64,000 nucleotides of DNA from a virus, in IMG/VR virus record IMGVR_UViG_3300025872_000046, positions 19,468 to 83,467 of that record, one strand, 5' to 3'. The position numbers and the translations under genes are program-made. Below, piece after piece: positions 20,479-63,212 of this stretch (positions within the stretch are counted from its first letter, which is position 1; every line of letters starts with the position of its first letter). The notes under the pieces are model-generated. The model had not been told where the DNA came from and searched no databases. It saw only the letters and a list, made by a program, of their open reading frames with translations.

Positions 20479-21513
20479 ATGAATATCGTAGCCGAGTACA
20501 TCTGGCAGGACGGAAGCCATCCGACCCACAAACTTCGAAGCAAGACAAAAATCCTGCAATACAGCGATGCAAACAAGCCTTTCGGAATAGAGGACATTCC
20601 TCGGTGGACCTTTGATGGCTCTTCCACCGGACAGGCTTCTGGTGACAGAAGTGACTGTCTTCTGATTCCCGCAAGATTTACTCTTGATCCCACTCGAGAG
20701 AAGAATCACGAGAGAGTCCACATTCTCGTCATCTGCGAGGTCTTCACCGCGGACATGAAGCCCCACGAGTCAAACACTCGCAGCAAGCTTCGTGAAGTTG
20801 TTGAGAAGACCCTTGACCACGAGCCCCTGTTCGGTATCGAGCAGGAGTACACGATGTTCAAGGACGGTCGGCCCCTCGGTTGGCCCACGGGTGGCTACCC
20901 TCCCCAGCAGGGTCCTTTCTACTGCGGTGTTGGATCCGATGAGGTCTTCGGTCGGGAGCTTGTCGAGGAGCACATGGCAGCATGTCTCGACTCCCGCATC
21001 GCCCTTTGCGGTATCAACGCCGAGGTGATGCCTGGCCAGTGGGAGTTCCAGATCGGAACTGCTGACGCTCTCACTGTCTCTGACCACCTCATCTTTGCAC
21101 GTTGGCTTCTCTACCGAATCGGCGAGAAGCACGGGATCACTGTGAAGCTTGATCCCAAGCCAGTCGCAGAGCTTAACGGTGCAGGAGCCCACACCAATTT
21201 CTCAACAAAGCGTATGCGTGAACCTGAGGGAATCTATGCTATCAAGGAAGCTTGCGAGCTGCTTCGCGTTCGTCACGAGCATCACATTGCTCACTACGGC
21301 CACGGTATTGAGCTTCGTCTCACGGGTCACCACGAGACATGCTCCTACAGAGAGTTCCGATACGGTGTGAGTGACAGAGGAGCCTCTATTCGGATACCTC
21401 TCCATGTGGCGCAAGAGGGCTGTGGATACCTCGAGGATCGTCGACCGTGCGCTAACGTTGATCCATACGTCGTGACCCGTCTGCTTCTTGAGGCGGTCTG
21501 CGGGGTGGAGTGA
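20479..21513 (+). CDS. Glutamine synthetase, type II (GSII, eukaryote-like)
   Basis: It has 344 residues, the usual GSII length. GSII signatures are intact: RWTFDGSSTGQASG, GIEQEYTMF, GWPTGGYPPQQGPFYCGVG, INAEVMPGQWEFQIG, NGAGAHTNFSTKRMR, RLTGHHET and SDRGASIRIP, then YLEDRRPCANVDPY. It condenses glutamate and ammonia to glutamine using ATP. Bacterial type I signatures are absent, so this is not a GlnA type I enzyme. It follows the ClpP-like gene by two bases and overlaps the next gene (GTGA). Glutamine would serve GlmS (61395-63212) and nucleotide synthesis. A GSII gene is an unusual phage cargo. Confidence 0.93.
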   Translation: MNIVAEYIWQDGSHPTHKLRSKTKILQYSDANKPFGIEDIPRWTFDGSSTGQASGDRSDCLLIPARFTLDPTREKNHERVHILVICEVFTADMKPHESNTRSKLREVVEKTLDHEPLFGIEQEYTMFKDGRPLGWPTGGYPPQQGPFYCGVGSDEVFGRELVEEHMAACLDSRIALCGINAEVMPGQWEFQIGTADALTVSDHLIFARWLLYRIGEKHGITVKLDPKPVAELNGAGAHTNFSTKRMREPEGIYAIKEACELLRVRHEHHIAHYGHGIELRLTGHHETCSYREFRYGVSDRGASIRIPLHVAQEGCGYLEDRRPCANVDPYVVTRLLLEAVCGVE

Positions 21514-21884
21514 AGCCAGCAAAGATAGAGCTGCTGACAAAAGTTGTAGCATGGAGATTCTTTTCCATGCTCTACGGATTCACGATAACCTACATCTTCA
21601 CCCACAGCGTGGGAGAGTCCGCAGGAATAGTCTTTCTGACGGGCTCAACACTCACCCTCCTTCAGTGGGTGTTTGAGATCATTTGGGACAGACACATTAG
21701 AGAGAGAATTAGGAATGCCCTTTCAAGAGAACAAGGTAGAGCTCATTGGTTGGTACGGTGGAGACGAGGCTCACGCACTTTCGGCTTGGACGAGCACGAG
21801 CAGGGACATCAGCCCAGAGAAGAGAAAGAGAGTTCCAGAGCTTTTGAAGATGCTCGCGGAGAACGGGCACGAGACGCCGTTTGA
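21510..21884 (+). CDS. Small membrane protein (DUF2061-like), overlapping thyX
   Basis: It encodes 124 residues from a GTG overlapping the GSII stop. The first ~70 residues follow the DUF2061 layout: a K-x-x-x-W-R-x-F start, a membrane helix with YGFTITYIFTHSVGESAGI, a second helix LTGSTLTLLQWVFEIIWDR, then a basic end. The last ~57 codons overlap the ThyX gene in another frame and read as a charged, low-quality tail. The gene may be real with an overprinted C-terminus. Confidence 0.55.
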   Translation: MKPAKIELLTKVVAWRFFSMLYGFTITYIFTHSVGESAGIVFLTGSTLTLLQWVFEIIWDRHIRERIRNALSREQGRAHWLVRWRRGSRTFGLDEHEQGHQPREEKESSRAFEDARGERARDAV

Positions 21885-22383
21885 GAAGAGCTCGATTCAC
21901 TTCCTCGTGACAGTGGACACTGCGACTCACATTCATCTCCTCAAGCATCGCATAGGCGTCTCAATCAATGCAGAGTCTGCTCGTTACAAGGAGCTCAAGG
22001 ACGACAAGTACGTGGTGCCGGATGACTGGCCCACTGTCGAGAAAGCGAAGTATATCGCATTCATGGAAGACGCGATAATGCGCTACCATGATACCCTTGA
22101 GCGTCTTGTGAAGGACGGGATGGATCGAAAGCGAGCCAAGGAGTCTGCCCGATTCTATCTGCCCTATGGCAACCAGGTGACGATGGACGTCATGTTCAAC
22201 TGGCGTTCCTTCAATCACTTTCTCAACCTGCGGATGAAGAGTGACGCTCAGAGGGAAGTGAGAGAGATCGCAGAGCAGATGCTCCAGCTCGTTGCCGGCA
22301 TCCCAACAAATCCGTTCAAGCACACGATCGAGGCGTTCGGTCTCGCTGACAGAGTCGAGGAAACTTTCCACCCACCTTACTGA
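21715..22383 (+). CDS. thyX: Flavin-dependent thymidylate synthase ThyX
   Basis: It encodes 222 residues from ATG 21715 with an AGGA just upstream; an upstream in-frame start at 21673 is less likely. The ThyX motif is LKHRIGVSINAESARY (RHRxxSxNxxSxRY-type, with K for the first R). NGHETPFEKSSIHFLV and the terminal Tyr-rich helix also fit the family. It converts dUMP to dTMP using FAD and NADPH. The gene overlaps the membrane-protein gene by 170 bases. A ThyA-family enzyme is encoded separately at 40275-41231. Confidence 0.92.
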   Translation: MPFQENKVELIGWYGGDEAHALSAWTSTSRDISPEKRKRVPELLKMLAENGHETPFEKSSIHFLVTVDTATHIHLLKHRIGVSINAESARYKELKDDKYVVPDDWPTVEKAKYIAFMEDAIMRYHDTLERLVKDGMDRKRAKESARFYLPYGNQVTMDVMFNWRSFNHFLNLRMKSDAQREVREIAEQMLQLVAGIPTNPFKHTIEAFGLADRVEETFHPPY

Positions 22384-23235: not shown

Positions 23236-23254
23236 TCAAAGGGAGTCCACAAGT

Positions 23255-23282
23255 TTGTAAAGTCTCCGTCAGGATGTATTAT
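23255..23282 (+). promoter_or_regulatory. Candidate promoter of the DNA-glycosylase operon
   Basis: TTGTAA, 16-base spacer, TATTAT. A GGAGG RBS (23291-23295) and the TTG start at 23302 follow. Confidence 0.55.
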
Positions 23283-23301
23283 CTTGATACGGAGGTGAAG
23301 C

Positions 23302-23754
23302 TTGTGGACTCCCCCAAAGTACGGACTAATCCAAGAGAAGTACTGGCCTGATCCCTGGAAGATCCTTGTCTGCTGCCTCTGTCTCAACCTCACTACGAGG
23401 AAGCAGATGGAACCAGTTGTTGAAAGGATGTTCCAGCGATGGCCTGATGCAAAGTCTCTGTCAGAAGCTGATGACGCAGAGCTCACGGATGTCATCCGAA
23501 CTCTTGGCATGTGGAAGAAGCGCGTCAATACTCTGAAGAAGATGTCGGCCCAGTATCACGAGGGCAAGTGGAATGACGTCCTCCAGCTTCACGGAGTTGG
23601 GAAGTATGCCTCGGACGCGTACCGAATCTTCGTCCTCGGTGACTGGCGCAGCGTCCAGCCGCAGGACCACGCTCTCAATGACTACCACGACTTCCTGAAG
23701 AAGCACTACGGCGAGTCAGAACATCCGTCTGCCAACCACAACTTCACCTGTTGA
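23302..23754 (+). CDS. MBD4-like HhH-GPD DNA glycosylase
   Basis: It has 150 residues from a TTG start with a good GGAGG RBS. It matches the catalytic domain of vertebrate MBD4 over most of its length: GLIQEKYWPDPWKILVCCLC at the start, the hairpin-helix-hairpin LHGVGKYASDAYRIF (96-110), then SVQPQDHALNDYHDFL, whose Asp122 aligns with the catalytic Asp of MBD4. It lacks the Fe-S cluster of EndoIII/MutY and any methyl-CpG-binding domain. MBD4 removes T or U opposite G, the products of 5-methylcytosine or cytosine deamination. The same substrate here is inferred. It heads a group including an Fpg/Nei glycosylase. Confidence 0.85.
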   Translation: MWTPPKYGLIQEKYWPDPWKILVCCLCLNLTTRKQMEPVVERMFQRWPDAKSLSEADDAELTDVIRTLGMWKKRVNTLKKMSAQYHEGKWNDVLQLHGVGKYASDAYRIFVLGDWRSVQPQDHALNDYHDFLKKHYGESEHPSANHNFTC

Positions 23755-24330: not shown

Positions 24331-25122
24331 GTGCCCGAGGGTCCCGAAGTCGCAAACTTTGTCCGCTCCATCAACAGCTTCCTCGGTGAGGGTGACAGGC
24401 TTCTCTCAGTTACGCCACTATCAGGTCGCTACACGAAGAAGCCCATCGAGGGACTCGCCAACGTCCAGTTTCCTCTCACAATCGAGAGTGTGGGTTGCAA
24501 GGGCAAGTTCATCTACTGGACCTTCCAGGACACTGAAACAGTCATCTTCAACACTCTCGGGATGTCAGGTGCATGGTCAAACGCCCCTCGTCACGCAAGG
24601 GTGAAGTTCGAGACATCCGAGGGTGAACTGTACTTCAATGATCCGCGAAACTTCGGCACCCTAAAGTTCTGCAGCCGCAAGGACTTGAAGGTGAAGCTTG
24701 ATTCACTCGGCCCCGACATGCTCAACGAGATAGTGAAGCCTGCCACTTTCATCGAGAGGCTTCGAAAGCATCCTGAAGCGACCCTGGCTGAAGTCCTCAT
24801 GAGTCAGGGAATCGTCTCAGGAGTCGGAAACTACCTGAAGGCGGACTCTCTCTGGATGGCGAAACTCAGCCCATGGCGAAAGGTGAACCAGACGACAGAT
24901 GAGCAGCTCACAATTCTCTGTGAATCCGTGAAGGATGTCATCAAGACGGCGTACCTCAACGGTGGCTCCACCATCCTCACCTACAAGGGGTTCGACGGTG
25001 AGGAAGGGAAACACTCTATGCTTGTCTATGGCCGAAAGACGGACCCCAACGGCGAGACTGTGGTGTGCCAGGAGACCAAGGACGGTCGCACAACGTGGTG
25101 GGTTCCGCGAGTTCAGAGTTAA
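24331..25122 (+). CDS. Fpg/Nei-family DNA glycosylase with zincless finger
   Basis: It encodes 263 residues from GTG with AAGGAGG upstream. The mature N-terminus PEGPEV carries the catalytic Pro2 and Glu3. KGKF supplies the conserved Lys. FNDPRNFGTL and the H2TH segment SQGIVSGVGNYLKADSL follow. The C-terminal finger keeps the GRTTWWVP loop with its Arg but has only one Cys, so it is a zincless finger like NEIL1-type enzymes. It excises oxidised bases and cleaves the abasic site. Together with the MBD4-like enzyme it forms a two-enzyme base-excision group. Confidence 0.9.
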   Translation: MPEGPEVANFVRSINSFLGEGDRLLSVTPLSGRYTKKPIEGLANVQFPLTIESVGCKGKFIYWTFQDTETVIFNTLGMSGAWSNAPRHARVKFETSEGELYFNDPRNFGTLKFCSRKDLKVKLDSLGPDMLNEIVKPATFIERLRKHPEATLAEVLMSQGIVSGVGNYLKADSLWMAKLSPWRKVNQTTDEQLTILCESVKDVIKTAYLNGGSTILTYKGFDGEEGKHSMLVYGRKTDPNGETVVCQETKDGRTTWWVPRVQS

Positions 25123-25164: not shown

Positions 25165-25899
25165 ATGTTTGTGAAACCCACGCAAACTGTCAAGCAGTTT
25201 GACGGCAAGATCGTAACCTTCTTCACAGAGAACAAGCTGTGGGTGAAGGCGTATGAAAACGGAAAGAACGCGTGGGAGAAGCGCAACTGGGCATACGCAC
25301 AGAAGATCGTCCAGAAGCCCGACGTCGTTCTAGACATCGGTGCGAACATCGGTCAGGAGATGCTCTACTACACCGGTTGGGCGAATCGAATCATCTCATT
25401 TGAGCCCAATCCCGCGACCTTCGAGGTCCTCAAGCAGAACGTTGACCAGAACAACATCAAGAATGTGAGGCTCGAACAGTTGGGGGTCGGATCAGGTCCC
25501 GCGAAGGCTTTCATCAATCTCATCAGGGGCAACGAGGGAAGGTCCTTTGTGACCGCCGTTCCGACAAAAGTCTCACACGAGATCACGATTGTCGCCATCG
25601 ATGATGTTGACATTGGTGAGGGAAGTGTTGACTTCGTGAAGATGGACGTCGAGGGATTTGAACTCAGAGCCCTCCACGGAATGAAGAATCTCATCGACAA
25701 GCACAACCCAGTCTTTCAAATTGAGGCTCAGGACGAGAACCTGTCTCGTTGCGGAGTCACTTCTGTTGATATCTGGGACTTTTTCATTGATCGTGGCTAC
25801 GTGGCTACGATCAATACGGGCAGGACGATCAATAGGGAGCACGCTCTCACGAAGGACCGTCCTCGAGTAGACCTCTTCTTCAAGAAGCCAAAGGAGTGA
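25165..25899 (+). CDS. FkbM-family methyltransferase
   Basis: It has 244 residues. VVLDIGANIGQEMLYY is the SAM-binding motif I, IISFEPNPATFEVLKQN the FkbM EP motif, and VDFVKMDVEGFELRALHGM the family DVEG(x)E motif. FkbM enzymes O-methylate sugars or small molecules. In this phage the target could be a sugar on the host surface or on DNA; nothing in the sequence decides this. Confidence 0.85.
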   Translation: MFVKPTQTVKQFDGKIVTFFTENKLWVKAYENGKNAWEKRNWAYAQKIVQKPDVVLDIGANIGQEMLYYTGWANRIISFEPNPATFEVLKQNVDQNNIKNVRLEQLGVGSGPAKAFINLIRGNEGRSFVTAVPTKVSHEITIVAIDDVDIGEGSVDFVKMDVEGFELRALHGMKNLIDKHNPVFQIEAQDENLSRCGVTSVDIWDFFIDRGYVATINTGRTINREHALTKDRPRVDLFFKKPKE

Positions 25900-25901
25900 A
25901 T

Positions 25902-26120
25902 ATGCAGTACAGACTCTCTGATGAGACCATTTCTTCCATCGCAAAGCTCGTCCAGCTCGCCATCCTGACGGGCACGGACGTCGTTGACAATCTTCGCACT
26001 CTGCGTCTTGAAGCCCAGGGAGAGGAGCTCACCCCCACTTCCGAGTTCAACGAGAACTTCCAGAAGAATCTCGATGACCTTGCGCAGAAGGCTCTGGATC
26101 TCCAGAATGACGTCAACTGA
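25902..26120 (+). CDS. Small hypothetical protein upstream of dUTPase
   Basis: It encodes 72 residues from ATG 25902, seven bases after AAGGAG; a GTG at 25896 overlaps the previous stop. The helical sequence includes IAKLVQLAILTGTDVVDNLR and a Gln/Asn-rich end. It overlaps the dUTPase gene by 14 bases. No known domain. Confidence 0.65.
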   Translation: MQYRLSDETISSIAKLVQLAILTGTDVVDNLRTLRLEAQGEELTPTSEFNENFQKNLDDLAQKALDLQNDVN

Positions 26121-26490
26121 TGACAGGCTGACAGAGATCTTTCGCCTGCGTGAAGAGTTCATGCAGGCAATCTCAGAGAAGATGCCGGGCTATTATCCTG
26201 ACTGGCCGATAGACGTTTCCAAGAAGCAGAGCCAGGTCATCCTTCGCGATTCCGTCCTTCGAGGAGTCGAGGAGATGTTCGAAGCTCTTCAGCACCTGAA
26301 GAACTCGAAGCCCCATCGACAGACTGAGGTGGCTCATTTTGAGAGGGAGGAGTTCCTCGAGGAGATTGTCGACGCTTACAATTACTTCTTGACGACTCTG
26401 GTGCTGATTGGAATCAGTCCCGATGAGCTTCACGATGCTTACCGCAAAAAGCACGAAAAGATCTTAGAGCGTCTAAAAAACGGTTACTGA
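26107..26490 (+). CDS. All-alpha dUTPase / MazG-like NTP pyrophosphohydrolase
   Basis: It encodes 127 residues; ATG 26107 is chosen because upstream codons are an out-of-frame shadow. VEEMFEAL gives the ExxE metal motif and FLEEIVDAYNYFL the second acidic helix (ExxD). The ending YRKKHEKILERLKNGY matches dimeric dUTPase_2-type proteins. It probably hydrolyses dUTP (and perhaps dCTP) to monophosphate, giving dUMP for ThyX and keeping U out of DNA. Confidence 0.75.
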   Translation: MTSTDDRLTEIFRLREEFMQAISEKMPGYYPDWPIDVSKKQSQVILRDSVLRGVEEMFEALQHLKNSKPHRQTEVAHFEREEFLEEIVDAYNYFLTTLVLIGISPDELHDAYRKKHEKILERLKNGY

Positions 26491-38686: not shown

Positions 38687-39754
38687 ATGAAGATCGGTTA
38701 CAGCTTCTGGGGTTACCTCACGCCGTTTGAGGAGAACAACATCGTTGCGACACCTGACGGCGAACGTGGCAACCGGGTTGACTTCGTTGATGAGATGTTG
38801 AAGCGTGGCCACAAGGTCACAAGGCTCCAAATCCAAAGAGATGAGAAGCCATACAAGGGCGTTGAGCTCCACGCCGACGGCGGGTTTCCTGATGTCGATG
38901 TCGCTTACTTTGAGTGGCGTTGGCCAACTTGGAAGAATGATGTCTCAATCGGTGGAGACAAGGCAACCGAGCCAGACTATCGACGGCAGATGGCTTGCCT
39001 CGAGCACTATCACAGCAGGGGCGTGCCCATCATCATCCACGACGGCGACCTCAAGATGACTCCCGAAGAGGAGCTCATGTTTCCCAACGCAGTCCTCACC
39101 GATGCTTGCGTCAATTCCAGAGTGCAGACTCGAAAGAGATTGACGCTTCCGTGGTGCAATTATCTCAATCGTCGACTGAAGACAGTCCCTTACTCGTACA
39201 ACTACACTTATGTGGGCAACAACTACGAGCGCGACAAGCAGTTCAAGAAGTACTACGGCATGCCCGCTCGGGGCCTCCGCGACCGGGGCGTCCAGACGAT
39301 GGTCCACGGCAACTGGCTCGAACGCAGTCCAGAGCGCAGGGATCCTGCTGAGCTCCTCACGGAAAATCCCTACGTCTCGTTCGGTGGACGTCTCGCATAC
39401 AACGAGATCTTCGATGCCTTCAACCGTTCCATCGCGGTGACTCACATCACGAAGGATGAGTACACTCCATACGGCAACATCACTGGTCGCTTCATGGAGT
39501 CCGTCATGGCTGGCACCGTGGCTCTCATCCCGAGCGAGTACATCCACGCTCGTCCGGTGGGTCTCGGTGAGTTCGTCGTTGACAGTCCAGAAGACATCAT
39601 CCGCTGCGTCAACATCCTCAACAACATGTCTGCCAATGACCGGCACCAGATTGTGCAGGAACAGGAACGCGCTCTACGTAAGGTTGTAGACATTCGACCT
39701 GAGCATAGAGTTGATATCATCGAGGCAGTTGCCAAGGGAGAGATCAAGGCATGA
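38687..39754 (+). CDS. Glycosyltransferase-like protein (GT-B type)
   Basis: It encodes 355 residues with GAAGGAG upstream. The N-terminal half has a Rossmann-like start (MKIGYSFWGYL...RGHKVTRLQ) and PIIIHDGDLKM. The C-terminal half has VSFGGRLAYNEIFDAF and YGNITGRFMESVMAGTVALI, a late GT-B pattern where the donor sugar nucleotide binds, then a helical end. Its stop overlaps the kinase gene (ATGA). Operon neighbours are a dNMP kinase and a ThyA-family enzyme, so DNA-base glycosylation is one candidate job; host-surface or protein glycosylation is the alternative. Confidence 0.65.
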   Translation: MKIGYSFWGYLTPFEENNIVATPDGERGNRVDFVDEMLKRGHKVTRLQIQRDEKPYKGVELHADGGFPDVDVAYFEWRWPTWKNDVSIGGDKATEPDYRRQMACLEHYHSRGVPIIIHDGDLKMTPEEELMFPNAVLTDACVNSRVQTRKRLTLPWCNYLNRRLKTVPYSYNYTYVGNNYERDKQFKKYYGMPARGLRDRGVQTMVHGNWLERSPERRDPAELLTENPYVSFGGRLAYNEIFDAFNRSIAVTHITKDEYTPYGNITGRFMESVMAGTVALIPSEYIHARPVGLGEFVVDSPEDIIRCVNILNNMSANDRHQIVQEQERALRKVVDIRPEHRVDIIEAVAKGEIKA

Positions 39755-40278
39755 AAAGAAATGTTCTATGCAGTTTCGAGGGTGTGGACCGAACGGGAAA
39801 GTCGGAGATTGCTCAAGAGCTCTCTCGACAGCTCGGAGTCCCATACTTCAAGAATACGGGTGAGTGGTCAACAGACCTCAAGGACCCATCATATTTCAAG
39901 AATCTTCTCGTCTATGGCGGCACGTTCCTCATCGACTTCATCCACCAGACGCAGCCTGATGCGATCCTTGATCGGCACTATCCGTCAGAGTGGGTCTACT
40001 CTCGCTTCTTCAATCGTGAGACGAACGAGGAAGTTGTCCGTAAGATTGACGAGAAGTTTGCTGAAGCGGGCGGCAAGATTATCCTTTGCCGCCGCAAGAG
40101 CTACAATGGGATCCAGGATGACCTTCATACCTACGTTGACAGTAACGTTCTCGAGGGGCTCGATCGGCTTTACGATGAGTTCACGAAGTGGACAAAGTGC
40201 CCGGTCCTCACGGTCTGGGTCGATGATGAAGACCTCAGCCGTGAAGTGAAGGAAATTCGGGAGTGGTTGAGCGCATGA
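39751..40278 (+). CDS. Deoxynucleoside-monophosphate (thymidylate-type) kinase
   Basis: It has 175 residues. The P-loop is CSFEGVDRTGKSEIA, with LDRHYPSEWVYSRFF carrying the DR(Y/H) motif and IILCRRK a later strand. These fit the dTMP kinase superfamily. It would convert dTMP, or a modified dCMP made by the next gene, to the diphosphate. It overlaps both neighbours by ATGA. Confidence 0.8.
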   Translation: MKRNVLCSFEGVDRTGKSEIAQELSRQLGVPYFKNTGEWSTDLKDPSYFKNLLVYGGTFLIDFIHQTQPDAILDRHYPSEWVYSRFFNRETNEEVVRKIDEKFAEAGGKIILCRRKSYNGIQDDLHTYVDSNVLEGLDRLYDEFTKWTKCPVLTVWVDDEDLSREVKEIREWLSA

Positions 40279-41231
40279 AGTCGTATGAAAGTTTCACTCG
40301 AGCCTACGTGGACCTCTGTCGTCTCATCAGAGATGAACATGAGTTTGAGTCGGCCCCTCGGGGGATGAAGATAAAGGAGAGCCTCGGTGTCCAGTTTCGT
40401 ATCAAGAATCCTCGCGACCGTCTCCCTCTGGTTGCGGCTCGAAACTTCTCGGCCGCGTACTTCGTTGCGGAAACGCTCTGGTACCTGTCAGGATCCGATT
40501 CCACTGCATGGATCTCCCGGTACGCTTCCTTCTGGAAGAACATCACAGACGACGGTGTGACGGCGAACTCCGCCTACGGTGCTCGAATCTTCCGTCCGCA
40601 TGACAGGATTGCTAACAGAGGAATTGTGCAGTGGGATTACGTGAAGGAGGAGCTCCGAAAGGACCCTGACTCCCGTCGAGCGGTCATCCACATCAGGACC
40701 CCGGACGACTCCCTCCACGCAGTGAAGGATGTCCCATGCACTCTCGCCCTCCAGTTCTTCATCCGTGAGGGCAAGCTTCATCTCCACGTCAACATGCGAT
40801 CCAGCGACATCATCCTCGGGATCGCTTATGATGTCCCTGCTTTCACGATGATGCAGGAGATCATGGCAAACGAGCTGGGCGTCGGTCTTGGTGAGTACGT
40901 CCACACTTCAAACTCTCTTCACTGTTATGAAAGAGACTTTGAGATGCTGGACGCAATCGCTAATGACGAGGATGCGAAAGGTTGTCCCATGATGCCCCTG
41001 CCTGAAGTCTTCCCAACAGAGAAGCTTCTTGCCTATGAAGGGATGGTCTGGGGTTTGGGCGAGGCTGAGCTTAGGGACGGAGTCCACGAGATGGGAAGAG
41101 AAGAACAGCTCGTGAGAGACTGGACGCTGGTTCTTGGAAGTTTCAGAGCGAGGAAGCTGAAGGATGATCGACTCGCAAAGATCCAGCTTCTTTCTACTTC
41201 TGACAGAGTTTACCACTTCTACAATAGGTGA
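40275..41231 (+). CDS. ThyA-family enzyme, likely dCMP methylase/hydroxymethylase type
   Basis: It encodes 318 residues; ATG overlaps the kinase stop. Family residues are intact: Glu66 in AETLWYL, catalytic Cys155 in DVPCTLALQF, RSSD (175-178), and SLHCY (His216, Tyr218). The position that is Asn177 in E. coli thymidylate synthase is Asp186 here (LGIAYDVPAF). Asn prefers dUMP; Asp at this site is found in T4 dCMP hydroxymethylase and makes thymidylate synthase accept dCMP. With ThyX encoded separately, an enzyme making 5-hydroxymethyl- or 5-methyl-dCMP is the better reading. Ordinary thymidylate synthesis is not excluded. Confidence 0.85.
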   Translation: MKSYESFTRAYVDLCRLIRDEHEFESAPRGMKIKESLGVQFRIKNPRDRLPLVAARNFSAAYFVAETLWYLSGSDSTAWISRYASFWKNITDDGVTANSAYGARIFRPHDRIANRGIVQWDYVKEELRKDPDSRRAVIHIRTPDDSLHAVKDVPCTLALQFFIREGKLHLHVNMRSSDIILGIAYDVPAFTMMQEIMANELGVGLGEYVHTSNSLHCYERDFEMLDAIANDEDAKGCPMMPLPEVFPTEKLLAYEGMVWGLGEAELRDGVHEMGREEQLVRDWTLVLGSFRARKLKDDRLAKIQLLSTSDRVYHFYNR

Positions 41232-41234
41232 GAT

Positions 41235-42230
41235 ATGAAAGCGCTAGTTACTGGTGGGGCAGGTTTTATCGGGTCCAATCTAGTTCACAGTCTTGTGCAA
41301 CTTGGCTGGACTGTCGATGTTGTCGATGACATGTCAAACGGCAGGATTGAATTTCTCGAAGGTGTCAATTTTCGAGTAGTCCCTGGGTTCCTGCTGGATC
41401 AATATGAAGAAAAGTATGAGCCCAATCGAGAAGGGCAGGTTCTTGTTGTCGAGGCTGACATGGAGATTCCCGGGATCCTCAAGAGAATCAGCGCGGGCAA
41501 GTATGACACTGTTTTTCATCTCGCGGCAAACCCACGAGTAGAGTACACTGTACAGCATCCGGCTGCGACGACTGACGTGAACTGCACACGGACGCTCTCG
41601 CTTCTTGAGGCAGTGCAAACTTCTCCAACTCCTGTCCGCTTTGTCTTCTCTTCGACCTGCGCAGTGTACGGCGATGCGAAGATCATCCCCACGAGCGAGA
41701 GCGCTGAGAAGCTGCCACTCTCCCCATACGGTCTGCAGAAGTCCTACGTTGAGGACTACATTCACATCGCAAATCGCCTGCACGGTCTCGACGCTGTCTG
41801 CCTGCGTTACTTCAATGTCTACGGTCCTCGACAGGTTGCCGACTCGGCTTACGCAACAGCGATTACGGCATGGTGCAATCGAGTGAAGGAGGGTAAGCCT
41901 CTCCGTTCTGATGGCGACGGTGAACAGTCACGTGACATGGTGTTTGTTGGTGACATTGTAGGGGCGAACATTCTCGCCGCGACAAGGGTCGAGAAGTTCA
42001 ACGGTGAGCGCATCAACATCGGAGCTGGTGAGAGATTCACGAACAATAAGATCCTCAACATGTTTCGTGAGCGCTTCAAGGACATTGAGATCGTTCACGC
42101 TCCCCCTCGACCGGGTGACGTTCGACACACTCTGAGTGACATTCGATACGCTGGAGAGCAGCTCGGATACACACCGCAGACCAAGTTCGAAGACGGACTC
42201 AGGCTCACCTGGGAATGGTGGGGTCTCTAA
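41235..42230 (+). CDS. NAD-dependent sugar-nucleotide epimerase/dehydratase
   Basis: It has 331 residues. TGGAGFIGSNLV is the NAD-binding GxxGxxG, FVFSSTCAVYG holds the catalytic Ser/Thr, and SPYGLQKSYVE the YxxxK pair. RYFNVYGPRQ and a C-terminal substrate-binding part fit extended SDR enzymes acting on UDP- or GDP-sugars (GalE/WbpP type). It would prepare an activated sugar, possibly for the glycosyltransferase upstream. Confidence 0.85.
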   Translation: MKALVTGGAGFIGSNLVHSLVQLGWTVDVVDDMSNGRIEFLEGVNFRVVPGFLLDQYEEKYEPNREGQVLVVEADMEIPGILKRISAGKYDTVFHLAANPRVEYTVQHPAATTDVNCTRTLSLLEAVQTSPTPVRFVFSSTCAVYGDAKIIPTSESAEKLPLSPYGLQKSYVEDYIHIANRLHGLDAVCLRYFNVYGPRQVADSAYATAITAWCNRVKEGKPLRSDGDGEQSRDMVFVGDIVGANILAATRVEKFNGERINIGAGERFTNNKILNMFRERFKDIEIVHAPPRPGDVRHTLSDIRYAGEQLGYTPQTKFEDGLRLTWEWWGL

Positions 42231-42637
42231 TGGCAGCCCCAAAGGAAGCGTGGACGAGCAGGTCTACCCGAGAATCAAAGCCCTGGGGCGATACAATCGT
42301 CTGGCACGCTCTACAATCGATACATGGCAAGGTGATCACGATACACGAGGGCTGCAGGACGAGCCTGAAGTATCACAACATCAAATCAGAAGTTTTCTTT
42401 GTCCTCAGCGGGACCGTGAGGGTCACTTACGGAAATTCGAGGACTCTGAAGGACAGCGAAAAGCATCCATACAAGACGAACTTACTGAAGACGGGCGATA
42501 CTTTCATCGTCCAATCAGAGTGTCCCTATCGCTTTGAGGCTCTCGAAGACTCCCGTCTCATCGAGGTCGGAGACAGAGTAGACGATACACCCATCAGAGT
42601 CGAGGACGACTATGGCCGTGCGAAGAAAGAGTCATGA
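42230..42637 (+). CDS. Cupin-fold protein (mannose-6-phosphate isomerase C-terminal-like)
   Basis: It encodes 135 residues; ATG overlaps the epimerase stop (TAATG). KPWGDTIVWHA resembles the start of GMP/PMI cupins, with SLKYHNIKSEVFFVLSGTVRV as cupin motif 1 and TGDTFIVQSECPYRF as motif 2. It may isomerise or bind a sugar phosphate or sugar nucleotide with the epimerase. Catalytic status is unclear because motif 1 has few metal ligands. Confidence 0.7.
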   Translation: MAAPKEAWTSRSTRESKPWGDTIVWHALQSIHGKVITIHEGCRTSLKYHNIKSEVFFVLSGTVRVTYGNSRTLKDSEKHPYKTNLLKTGDTFIVQSECPYRFEALEDSRLIEVGDRVDDTPIRVEDDYGRAKKES

Positions 42638-44628: not shown

Positions 44629-45108
44629 GTGACTACTTCTGACGATGATAAGGTAATCCACATCAATGACTTCATCGATTCTCAGAGAGACACAGAGAGC
44701 CCAATGAGACCCACCTGGGATCAGGTGTGGATGGAAACTGCAAAGATACTTTCACGAAGGTCACTGGATCCGAGGTTCCAAGTCGGAGCCGTCATAGTCG
44801 CAGAGGACAACACGCAGGTCCTCGCGGTGGGGTACAACGGTGACCACAGGGGCGGACCAAATTCCGTGGAGTCCACCGAACCCGGACAATCTGGGTTCAT
44901 CCACGCCGAGATCAACGCCCTCATAAAGTGCGACTTCAACCATCCGAAGGCGAAGAAGATGTACCTCACCCTCTCTCCCTGTCGTCAGTGCGCGAAGGCG
45001 ATCATCAACGGTGGGGTGAGGGAAGTTGTGTACCTTGAAGAATATAGGGACACAAGCGGGGTAAAGTTGCTCATAGAATCCGGCCTAACAGTCCGTCGAT
45101 ATAGATAG
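44629..45108 (+). CDS. dCMP deaminase-type cytidine deaminase
   Basis: It encodes 159 residues from GTG. HAEINAL supplies the zinc His and catalytic Glu, SPCRQCAKAIING the two zinc Cys, with NGDHRGGPN before them as in dCMP deaminases. It makes dUMP from dCMP for ThyX. In a phage that uses modified dCMP it would also lower the normal dCMP pool. Confidence 0.88.
   Translation: MTTSDDDKVIHINDFIDSQRDTESPMRPTWDQVWMETAKILSRRSLDPRFQVGAVIVAEDNTQVLAVGYNGDHRGGPNSVESTEPGQSGFIHAEINALIKCDFNHPKAKKMYLTLSPCRQCAKAIINGGVREVVYLEEYRDTSGVKLLIESGLTVRRYR
45100..45107 (+). promoter_or_regulatory. Candidate late promoter element TATAGATA
   Basis: The octamer resembles the T4 late consensus TATAAATA. It lies about 45 bases before the start of the virion-type operon at 45153. 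The same octamer precedes the gene at 63711. Confidence 0.4.
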
Positions 45109-55701: not shown

Positions 55702-57721
<2,020 letters not shown>

Positions 57722-61394: not shown

Positions 61395-63212
61395 ATGTGT
61401 GGAATCGTAGGTTACATCGGCAAGAAGCAGGCAACCCCAATCCTCATCGAGGGCCTCCGGCGTCTGGAGTATCGTGGATACGACAGCGCCGGAATCGCCG
61501 TTTTTGATGGCGGACACATCGTGACATCGAAGGCTCTCGGTCAGGTGAAGTTCCTGGCTGAGAACGCGAACCTCGAGGGCAGGGCGGGGGTCGGTCACAC
61601 GAGGTGGGCGACACACGGTGGCGTCACCATCCCGAACACCCACCCTCATACAGACATGAGTGGGAACATTGCGGTTGTCCACAACGGGATCATCGAGAAC
61701 TACGCGGAACTGAGAAACCAGCTCACTGCAGAGGGTGCTGCTTTCCTCTCAGAGACGGACACAGAGGTCATCCCTCACCTCATCAGGAAGCACTACAGGG
61801 GCGACCTCCTCGCCGCCCTCCTCGAGACCCTCCCTCTACTCAGGGGGACTTACGGGATCGCAGTTGTCTCCTCACTCAGTCCGAGGACGATCCTCGTGGC
61901 ACGGAATGGATCGCCCATCGTAATCGGTGTCGGGAAGGGTGAGAACTGGATTGCATCAGACTCATCCGCGTTTGCTCAGCACACGAGAGAAGTCGTCTAC
62001 CTCGAGGACGGTGATGTCGCCTCAGTGACGATGGAGGGCTGGGAGATCGAGAAGCACGGTGGATCCCTCGCGGCAAGGAGGGCGGTGACGATCTCAGAGG
62101 AGTGGGTTGACGCTGAGAAGGGTAACCACCCGCACTTCATGCTGAAGGAGATCTACGAGCAGCCCACGACTCTCCGACGCTGCATGACTGGTCGTCTCCT
62201 CGAGAACACCGCGAAGCTGGGTGGCATCAACCTGACACCGAGAGAGATCGTCAACCTCCAGAACCTCGGCATCGTCTCCTGTGGGACCTCTTACCACGCT
62301 GGCCTGGTCGCAGCACACGCCTTCGAGGAGCTGGCTGGTCTGAGGACGAACGCAGAGATTGCCTCGGAGCTGAGATACCGCAACCCGCCCATCGGGACTG
62401 ACGATCTCTACCTCGGCGTCTCCCAGTCCGGTGAGACTGCGGACACCCTCCACGCCCTCAGGATGGTGAAGTCACGGGGAGCCCATGTCGCAGGTGTCAT
62501 CAACGTGGTGGGATCGACAATCGCGAGGGAGTGTGGGCAGGGAGTCTACATCCACAGCGGGCCTGAGCAGGCGGTCGCATCCACGAAAGCCTTCACCTCA
62601 CAGGTCACCGCACTCCTCCTCCTTGCCCTCTCCTTCGGGACGACACGAGGTCTCTCCTCGGTGGAGGGATGGCGGGTCTCGAAGGCTCTCGGTGAGATTC
62701 CCGAGGCTGTGAATCGCTGGCTGGACGGTGGGCCAGAGATAGTGAGGGAGGTCGCACAGTCTGTCTACGGAGCAAAGCAGGTCTTCTTCATCGGCAGGGG
62801 AGTCTCTGCTCCCGTGGCAATGGAAGGCGCTCTGAAGCTGAAGGAGATCTCCTACATCCCTTCCTTCGCTTATCCTGCCGGAGAGATGAAGCACGGTCCC
62901 ATTGCCCTCATCGACAGTGAGACTCCGCTCATCGCCATCGTTCCCAAGGACCAGTGGCGCGACAAGACGGTCTCCAACATCATCGAGGCGAAGGCGAGGG
63001 GCGCGAAGATCATCTCAATCGCCGACCCCCTTGATGAGGAGGTCGAGGCGTTGAGCGACCACTTCATCCCCGTCCCCGGAGCGGGCCACCACCTCGCTAG
63101 CCCACTTCTCACCGTCATCCCACTCCAGCTTCTCGCCTACGAGGTAGCGAACCTGCTCGGTAGGGACATCGACCGTCCCAGGAACCTCGCGAAGTCCGTC
63201 ACCGTGGAGTGA
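61395..63212 (+). CDS. glmS: Glutamine--fructose-6-phosphate aminotransferase (GlmS)
   Basis: It has 605 residues, the full bacterial length. Cys2 (MCGIVGYIG) is the glutaminase nucleophile after Met removal; TRWATHGG, HNGIIENY and SDTEV-type SETDTEVI follow. The isomerase half has two SIS domains with SCGTSYHAG, SQSGETADT, GPEQAVASTKAFTSQ and EGALKLKEISYI, and ends with the typical PRNLAKSVTVE. It makes glucosamine-6-phosphate from fructose-6-phosphate and glutamine. The ATG lacks an RBS and sits just after a -10 box. It could feed UDP-GlcNAc for glycosylation, with glutamine from the GSII gene. Confidence 0.96.
   Translation: MCGIVGYIGKKQATPILIEGLRRLEYRGYDSAGIAVFDGGHIVTSKALGQVKFLAENANLEGRAGVGHTRWATHGGVTIPNTHPHTDMSGNIAVVHNGIIENYAELRNQLTAEGAAFLSETDTEVIPHLIRKHYRGDLLAALLETLPLLRGTYGIAVVSSLSPRTILVARNGSPIVIGVGKGENWIASDSSAFAQHTREVVYLEDGDVASVTMEGWEIEKHGGSLAARRAVTISEEWVDAEKGNHPHFMLKEIYEQPTTLRRCMTGRLLENTAKLGGINLTPREIVNLQNLGIVSCGTSYHAGLVAAHAFEELAGLRTNAEIASELRYRNPPIGTDDLYLGVSQSGETADTLHALRMVKSRGAHVAGVINVVGSTIARECGQGVYIHSGPEQAVASTKAFTSQVTALLLLALSFGTTRGLSSVEGWRVSKALGEIPEAVNRWLDGGPEIVREVAQSVYGAKQVFFIGRGVSAPVAMEGALKLKEISYIPSFAYPAGEMKHGPIALIDSETPLIAIVPKDQWRDKTVSNIIEAKARGAKIISIADPLDEEVEALSDHFIPVPGAGHHLASPLLTVIPLQLLAYEVANLLGRDIDRPRNLAKSVTVE

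Follow-up and report, generated by a model that had tools for sequence, protein, structure and literature searches.

Here we present a phage-encoded, stand-alone glycosylase homologue of the HhH-GPD superfamily, which by sequence and by fold forms a sister branch of MBD4, and is not MBD4 itself. We lean, with modest confidence, towards the reading that it acts as a monofunctional glycosylase on 5-substituted cytosine that has deaminated opposite G, that its action would be followed by strand opening by the Fpg/Nei-type protein encoded next to it, and that the two serve a phage repair island. For a phage with every cytosine substituted at C5, deamination gives T or 5-hydroxymethyluracil rather than U, and ordinary uracil repair may miss these products; the literature that we searched held no answer to how fully C5-substituted phages handle deaminated cytosine. 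The window, as we call the whole stretch of DNA analysed, comprises 64,000 nucleotides of an 83,467-base viral record, in which the gene is the sole copy of its kind (Table 1).

Table 1. Features of the window discussed in the text
Feature	Position	Strand	Remarks
Hairpin, 3' arm containing the TTG start of the glycosylase gene	23241..23314	+	
MBD4-like HhH-GPD DNA glycosylase	23302..23754	+	150 aa; Q11, Y102, D122, L30
Fpg/Nei-type glycosylase homologue	24331..25122	+	linked neighbour, downstream of the MBD4-like gene
MazG/dUTPase-like nucleotide pyrophosphohydrolase	25984..26490	+	
ThyX, flavin-dependent thymidylate synthase	21673..22383	+	the phage's own dTMP source
Glycosyltransferase, GT-B fold	38687..39754	+	nearest structure T4 beta-glucosyltransferase
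Thymidylate-kinase-like dNMP kinase	39751..40278	+	weak match
ThyA-family enzyme	40263..41231	+	Asp190 at TS position 177; likely dCMP hydroxymethylase
GalE-type nucleotide-sugar epimerase	41235..42230	+	
Cupin	42215..42637	+	mannose-6-phosphate-isomerase-like
dCMP deaminase	44629..45108	+	

The gene and its start region

The open reading frame is confirmed as real, and chance is excluded. Its TTG start at 23302 is preceded by a ribosome-binding-like GGAGGTG just 5' and by an in-frame stop at 23296, and the gene is under purifying selection, with nucleotide differences at the three codon positions of 3, 2 and 43 against a relative of 95% amino acid identity and of 10, 6 and 61 against one of 90%. 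The start codon lies within a highly stable hairpin (-42.8 kcal/mol, z -7.5). Conserved regulation by this hairpin was considered and rejected, since it is poorly kept in relatives, being found in part in L006 and L007 and not at all in L008.

Family and fold

An earlier note, made from the sequence alone, had claimed a match to the vertebrate MBD4 catalytic domain through the HhH and catalytic Asp region, and both parts of that claim are borne out. In a phmmer search of the PDB, all 15 listed MBD4 sequences matched residues 2-136 of the protein at 1.2e-33 to 1.7e-32, and the next true glycosylases, MutY and the archaeal G-T enzyme 1kea, followed at about 0.003; a profile built from 21 relatives gave 1.4e-43 for MBD4 against 2.5e-15 for EndoIII. 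Comparison of the AlphaFold model (pLDDT 93.4) with solved structures placed 16 MBD4 entries at Z 22.8-23.8 and the next, 1kea, at Z 13.8, and Foldseek separated MBD4 (E 5.3e-11) from the next family (9e-4) in the same way. MBD4 structures with G:T and with G:5hmU (4evv, 4ew0, 4e9h) fit the model equally well.

Against the Pfam HhH-GPD model (PF00730) the protein scores 31.7 bits, above the cut-off of 26.2, and it has the catalytic Asp, a counterpart of which is found in 88 of 88 homologues. Its scores against the Endonuclease III equivalog TIGR01083 (29.2 bits, cut-off 211.7) and the MutY equivalog TIGR01084 (20.2 bits, cut-off 286.5) fall far below. The profile search against MBD4 and the EndoIII, MutY and MIG families that the note had proposed thus leaves MBD4 nearest, with neither EndoIII nor AlkA closer, and on these score gaps we rejected membership of the EndoIII, MutY, MIG or AlkA groups. 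The counterparts of MBD4 Gln449, Tyr540 and Asp560 are Q11, Y102 and D122; Arg468, the arginine finger, is replaced by Leu30, and the reading frame opens at the catalytic domain, with no N-terminal methyl-CpG-binding domain. Because the arginine finger is absent, we name the protein MBD4-like and not MBD4.

Neighbouring genes and the probable type of cytosine modification

The Fpg/Nei homologue downstream has one Cys within its last 40 residues and no zinc-finger Cys set, and its nearest solved entries are 3a45 and 3a46 (7.5e-34), which we take to be mimivirus Nei1. Immediately 3' of its gene is that of an FkbM-family methyltransferase (25165-25899), and the phage also encodes a GroEL/Cpn60 chaperonin (55875-57476).

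The earlier note had linked the glycosylase to the ThyA-family enzyme of the window. The nearest solved relative of this enzyme is the CMP 5-hydroxymethylase MilA (1.1e-42), against 1.4e-24 for thymidylate synthase, and its Asp190 occupies the column of E. coli TS Asn177. With Asn177 absent and the equivalogs among the matches listed all below cut-off, it is not a thymidylate synthase by this test; Asp at position 177 with MilA nearest places it in the dCMP/CMP hydroxymethylase branch. According to the available text of the MetaGPA study, an enzyme with Asp in place of Asn177 takes dCMP instead of dUMP, and this change is a mark of cytosine-modified viral contigs (PMC8670742). Judged from its sequence, the enzyme is likely a dCMP hydroxymethylase.

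The adjoining glycosyltransferase gave no useful PDB match by sequence and no match to the protein of locus L026. In the comparison of its model (pLDDT 79.8, built from seven sequences), T4 beta-glucosyltransferase took Foldseek ranks 1-3, with a top Z of 23.4 against at most 21.8 for other GT-B enzymes; since GT-B folds score high generally, we treat this match as a lead and not as proof. The glycosyltransferase is present in 6 of 48 deaminase loci, in all six with the ThyA homologue alongside. DHFR was not found in the window's record. A DHFR match was obtained in 5 of 32 records, all Xp12-type; because no match came from 6 of the 11 Xp12-type records searched, DHFR was rejected as a clean marker of methylase versus hydroxymethylase and is suggestive only.

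Taken together, a MilA-nearest, Asp-type ThyA homologue, an adjoining glycosyltransferase and the lack of a DHFR match favour sugar-bearing 5-hydroxymethylcytosine over 5-methylcytosine, and the former would be the likelier modification in this phage. The proposed tie between the ThyA-family enzyme and methylated cytosine therefore stands as to the type of base, to which Asp190 and MilA point, but not as to the substituent, for which the neighbours indicate 5-hydroxymethylcytosine with a sugar. The window also encodes a glutamine synthetase homologue (20479-21513) and a GATase and SIS protein of the glucosamine-6-phosphate synthase kind (61395-63212), which could be an amino-sugar source for DNA or capsid glycosylation.

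Relatives, AXL1 and Xp12

Eight matches to the glycosylase were found in 50,697 phage records, including AXL_1, DoCa6, YB23, Donnerlittchen and the cyanophage S-TIM54. Three of the first four are filed under Bradleyvirinae (YB23 is unplaced below class), and in all four the glycosylase gene lies two genes ahead of an Asp177-type ThyA. AXL1 gp65 is 35% identical to the window protein, and its nearest PDB family is MBD4 (1.1e-13), ahead of EndoIII (0.0012). The available text of the AXL1 report names a relative of gp65 only in Xp12, assigns it no function and makes no link to MBD4, and it also records that AXL1 DNA was cut by 5 of 31 enzymes (PMC9206674); this text is our one source for the Xp12 homologue. 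Cytosine in Xp12 DNA is 100% 5mC according to the part of PMC7653180 available, which announces a detailed Xp12 analysis for publication elsewhere. The MBD4 likeness suggests a function for this unexplained AXL1/Xp12 protein. In AXL_1 (L003 34806-36058), two conserved genes, phrog_34935 and phrog_11422, stand immediately 5' of the MBD4-like gene.

Altogether 151 viral loci matched the glycosylase, of which 80 were kept, seven of them in contigs already in the set. When 84,980 prokaryote species were scanned by pattern, three loci came up, one of them convincing (L121/G094:C5). It sits on a 305-kb contig that is filed as a Methylococcaceae MAG, also carries an Asp-type ThyA and could be a jumbo phage; among 150 genomes of the same phylum, a profile search found the glycosylase in G094 alone. 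Within these scans of 84,980 species and 150 genomes, the family looks viral among prokaryotes. A phage MBD4-type enzyme was not found in the literature searched, and subscription papers could describe one.

Association with ThyA and with Fpg/Nei genes

The link to a ThyA gene is strongest in the placement of the glycosylase gene. In all 11 AXL1/Xp12-type records (four named phages and seven viral contigs) it precedes an Asp177 ThyA on the same strand by 775-1026 bp, and in an unrelated lineage (L026, L027) the glycosylase, a small protein, a protein of 350-359 aa and an Asp-type ThyA are encoded in one run. Every readable ThyA row in the first set of homologue-bearing records has the Asp (17/17, a count outside which falls L040, which ends before the key residue), as do further homologue-bearing records (G078, G087, G088, G090, G092 and the MAG contig G094:C5). 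A second ThyA place occurs in G087, G088, G090 and G092; of the ThyA genes at this place, the two read (L124 in G092 and L125 in G089) have the Asn, and no other type is seen in G089. This residue reading left out G091 and, separately, loci L126-L129.

The chief rival of the modified-cytosine reading, which we regard as rather unlikely, is that the protein is a general G:U/G:T glycosylase of a phage repair island, which deals with ordinary cytosine deamination and misincorporation and has no tie to modified cytosine. It draws on the records that lack the expected partners: ThyA (PF00303) is absent in 74 of 95 homologue-bearing records, some longer than 100 kb, although many records in these counts are fragments (it is present in 13/21, 0/50 and 8/24 by set), and no C5 cytosine methyltransferase (PF00145) was found in the chosen set of 50. 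These counts led us to reject two ideas: that a cytosine-type ThyA is common to every homologue-bearing phage, and that the ThyA-less relatives derive 5mC from a C5 DNA methyltransferase. The steady neighbours of the gene are repair and pool-cleaning genes, namely a MazG-like family (39/80 loci), Fpg/Nei (28/80) and a family, presumably UV-endonuclease-like, near 10 of the 80.

The window's own phage set, 48 records picked by dCMP deaminase, gave a similar picture in Fisher tests that ignore the relatedness of the phages. ThyA accompanied the glycosylase in 8 of 15 positive records and occurred in 13 of 33 negative ones (both 8, glycosylase alone 7, ThyA alone 13, neither 20), which is not significant (p=0.28, relatedness uncorrected). 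Fpg/Nei was present in 12 of the 15 and 7 of the 33 (both 12, glycosylase alone 3, Fpg/Nei alone 7, neither 26; p=1.8e-4, relatedness uncorrected); in a narrower set of 28 records the association had p=0.06, likewise uncorrected. Among the glycosylase-negative records that were read in the window's phage set, ThyA was Asp-type in 13 of 13, as it also is where the glycosylase is present, and the general rule that Asp177 marks glycosylase-bearing phages was accordingly rejected.

In L148 and L149, close relatives of the window, the glycosyltransferase-ThyA pair between the polymerase and the epimerase is missing and the glycosylase is retained, and DLP4, PaMx28 and Elanor (close Xp12 relatives) and RDJL Phi 1 carry an Asp177 ThyA yet are absent from the glycosylase matches. 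The ThyA cassette thus comes and goes, and Fpg/Nei is the steadier partner. Across close relatives (window 38687-42637 compared with L148, L149 and L161-L164), the genes for the glycosyltransferase and ThyA, which lie between those for PolC and the epimerase, are either both there or both missing, and the pair resembles a swappable modification cassette.

The link to the ThyA gene drawn in the earlier note therefore lacks statistical significance in the window's phage set and is much better supported by gene order in the Xp12/AXL1-type records. What tells against a general glycosylase is that the gene stands, operon-like, before an Asp177 ThyA in two lineages that are unrelated, and that the available text of PMC9206674 reports a homologue in Xp12.

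Active site and the missing arginine finger

The roles of the MBD4 residues are taken from PMC12073362, in which Q449 and Y540 read the thymine, D560 is catalytic and R468 is the arginine finger. In 88 distinct phage homologues whose columns were read, the counterparts of Q449, Y540 and D560 are kept in 87, 88 and 88, and the R468 column holds Leu in 73, Gln in 12, Cys in three and Arg in none. The base pocket is therefore that of MBD4 and the wedge is not. An Arg stands three residues past the R468 column in 70 of the 88. Human R468 mutants are inactive, such changes disabling the enzyme (PMC12073362); as the finger is lost in every phage homologue read, G:T activity is not to be assumed, this loss being the strongest argument against doing so. 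The phage family is thereby a natural experiment on the purpose of the MBD4 arginine finger.

The same replacement underlies a second rival, in our view clearly improbable, by which specificity has shifted from that of MBD4: without a finger the estranged G would go unread, and the enzyme would act on another lesion or opposite any partner. The Arg three positions further on and the inactive human mutants fit such a shift, but the near-complete conservation of the thymine-edge Gln and Tyr argues against it, as does the fact that the wedge in other glycosylases is Q, L, Y or N (PMC12073362). That the protein is a weapon which strips bases from the DNA of the host or of rival phages is very improbable: DNA glycosylases can take part in phage-host conflict according to the available text of PMC11078745, but this one has the pocket of a mismatch repair enzyme, and its neighbours are repair genes.

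Proposed role

On the reading that we favour, repair of deaminated 5-substituted cytosine, the glycosylase would flip a 5-substituted uracil opposite G into a pocket lined by main-chain atoms together with Q11 and Y102, and a water activated by D122 would then cut off the base. The Fpg/Nei homologue next door probably opens the abasic site, and a phage or host polymerase and a ligase would complete the repair. The target in this phage would be 5-hydroxymethyluracil (T and U too) opposite G, arising from deamination of 5-hydroxymethylcytosine; in the Xp12-type relatives the enzyme would act on T opposite G, with 5-methylcytosine as the source of the T. A wider proposal, possible but one that we put forward only tentatively, is that finger-less MBD4-like glycosylases are widespread and, in the prokaryotic world, almost wholly viral, that they guard phage genomes with C5-modified cytosine against deamination, Xp12 included, and that they read the orphan G in some other way.

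Comparison with known systems

The vertebrate MBD4 catalytic domain aligns over its whole length with the window protein at 37-38% identity, with Z of 23.8, and the phage protein keeps its catalytic Asp and its thymine-reading Gln and Tyr. Unlike MBD4, it consists of the catalytic domain alone, has Leu for R468 and Ala for K562, and is phage-borne. The MthMIG-type thymine-DNA glycosylase (1kea), EndoIII and MutY have the HhH-GPD fold in common with it, at Z about 13-14, but their sequence matches, about 0.003 or worse, are far weaker than that of MBD4. At 150 aa, the window protein presumably stops short of the position of their iron-sulphur tail. AXL1 gp65, described as an 'ENDO3c domain protein' of a Bradleyvirinae phage, and its reported Xp12 homologue belong to the same branch; unlike the window gene, that for gp65 lies just 5' of a ThyA of the Xp12 type, which is accompanied by DHFR and dCMP deaminase. 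Like the cytosine pathway of T4, the window has an Asp177-type ThyA homologue adjoining a GT-B enzyme for which T4 BGT is the best structural match. Unlike T4, with its dCMP hydroxymethylase and beta-glucosyltransferase, the window has a ThyA homologue closer to MilA, and an epimerase, a cupin and a kinase in addition.
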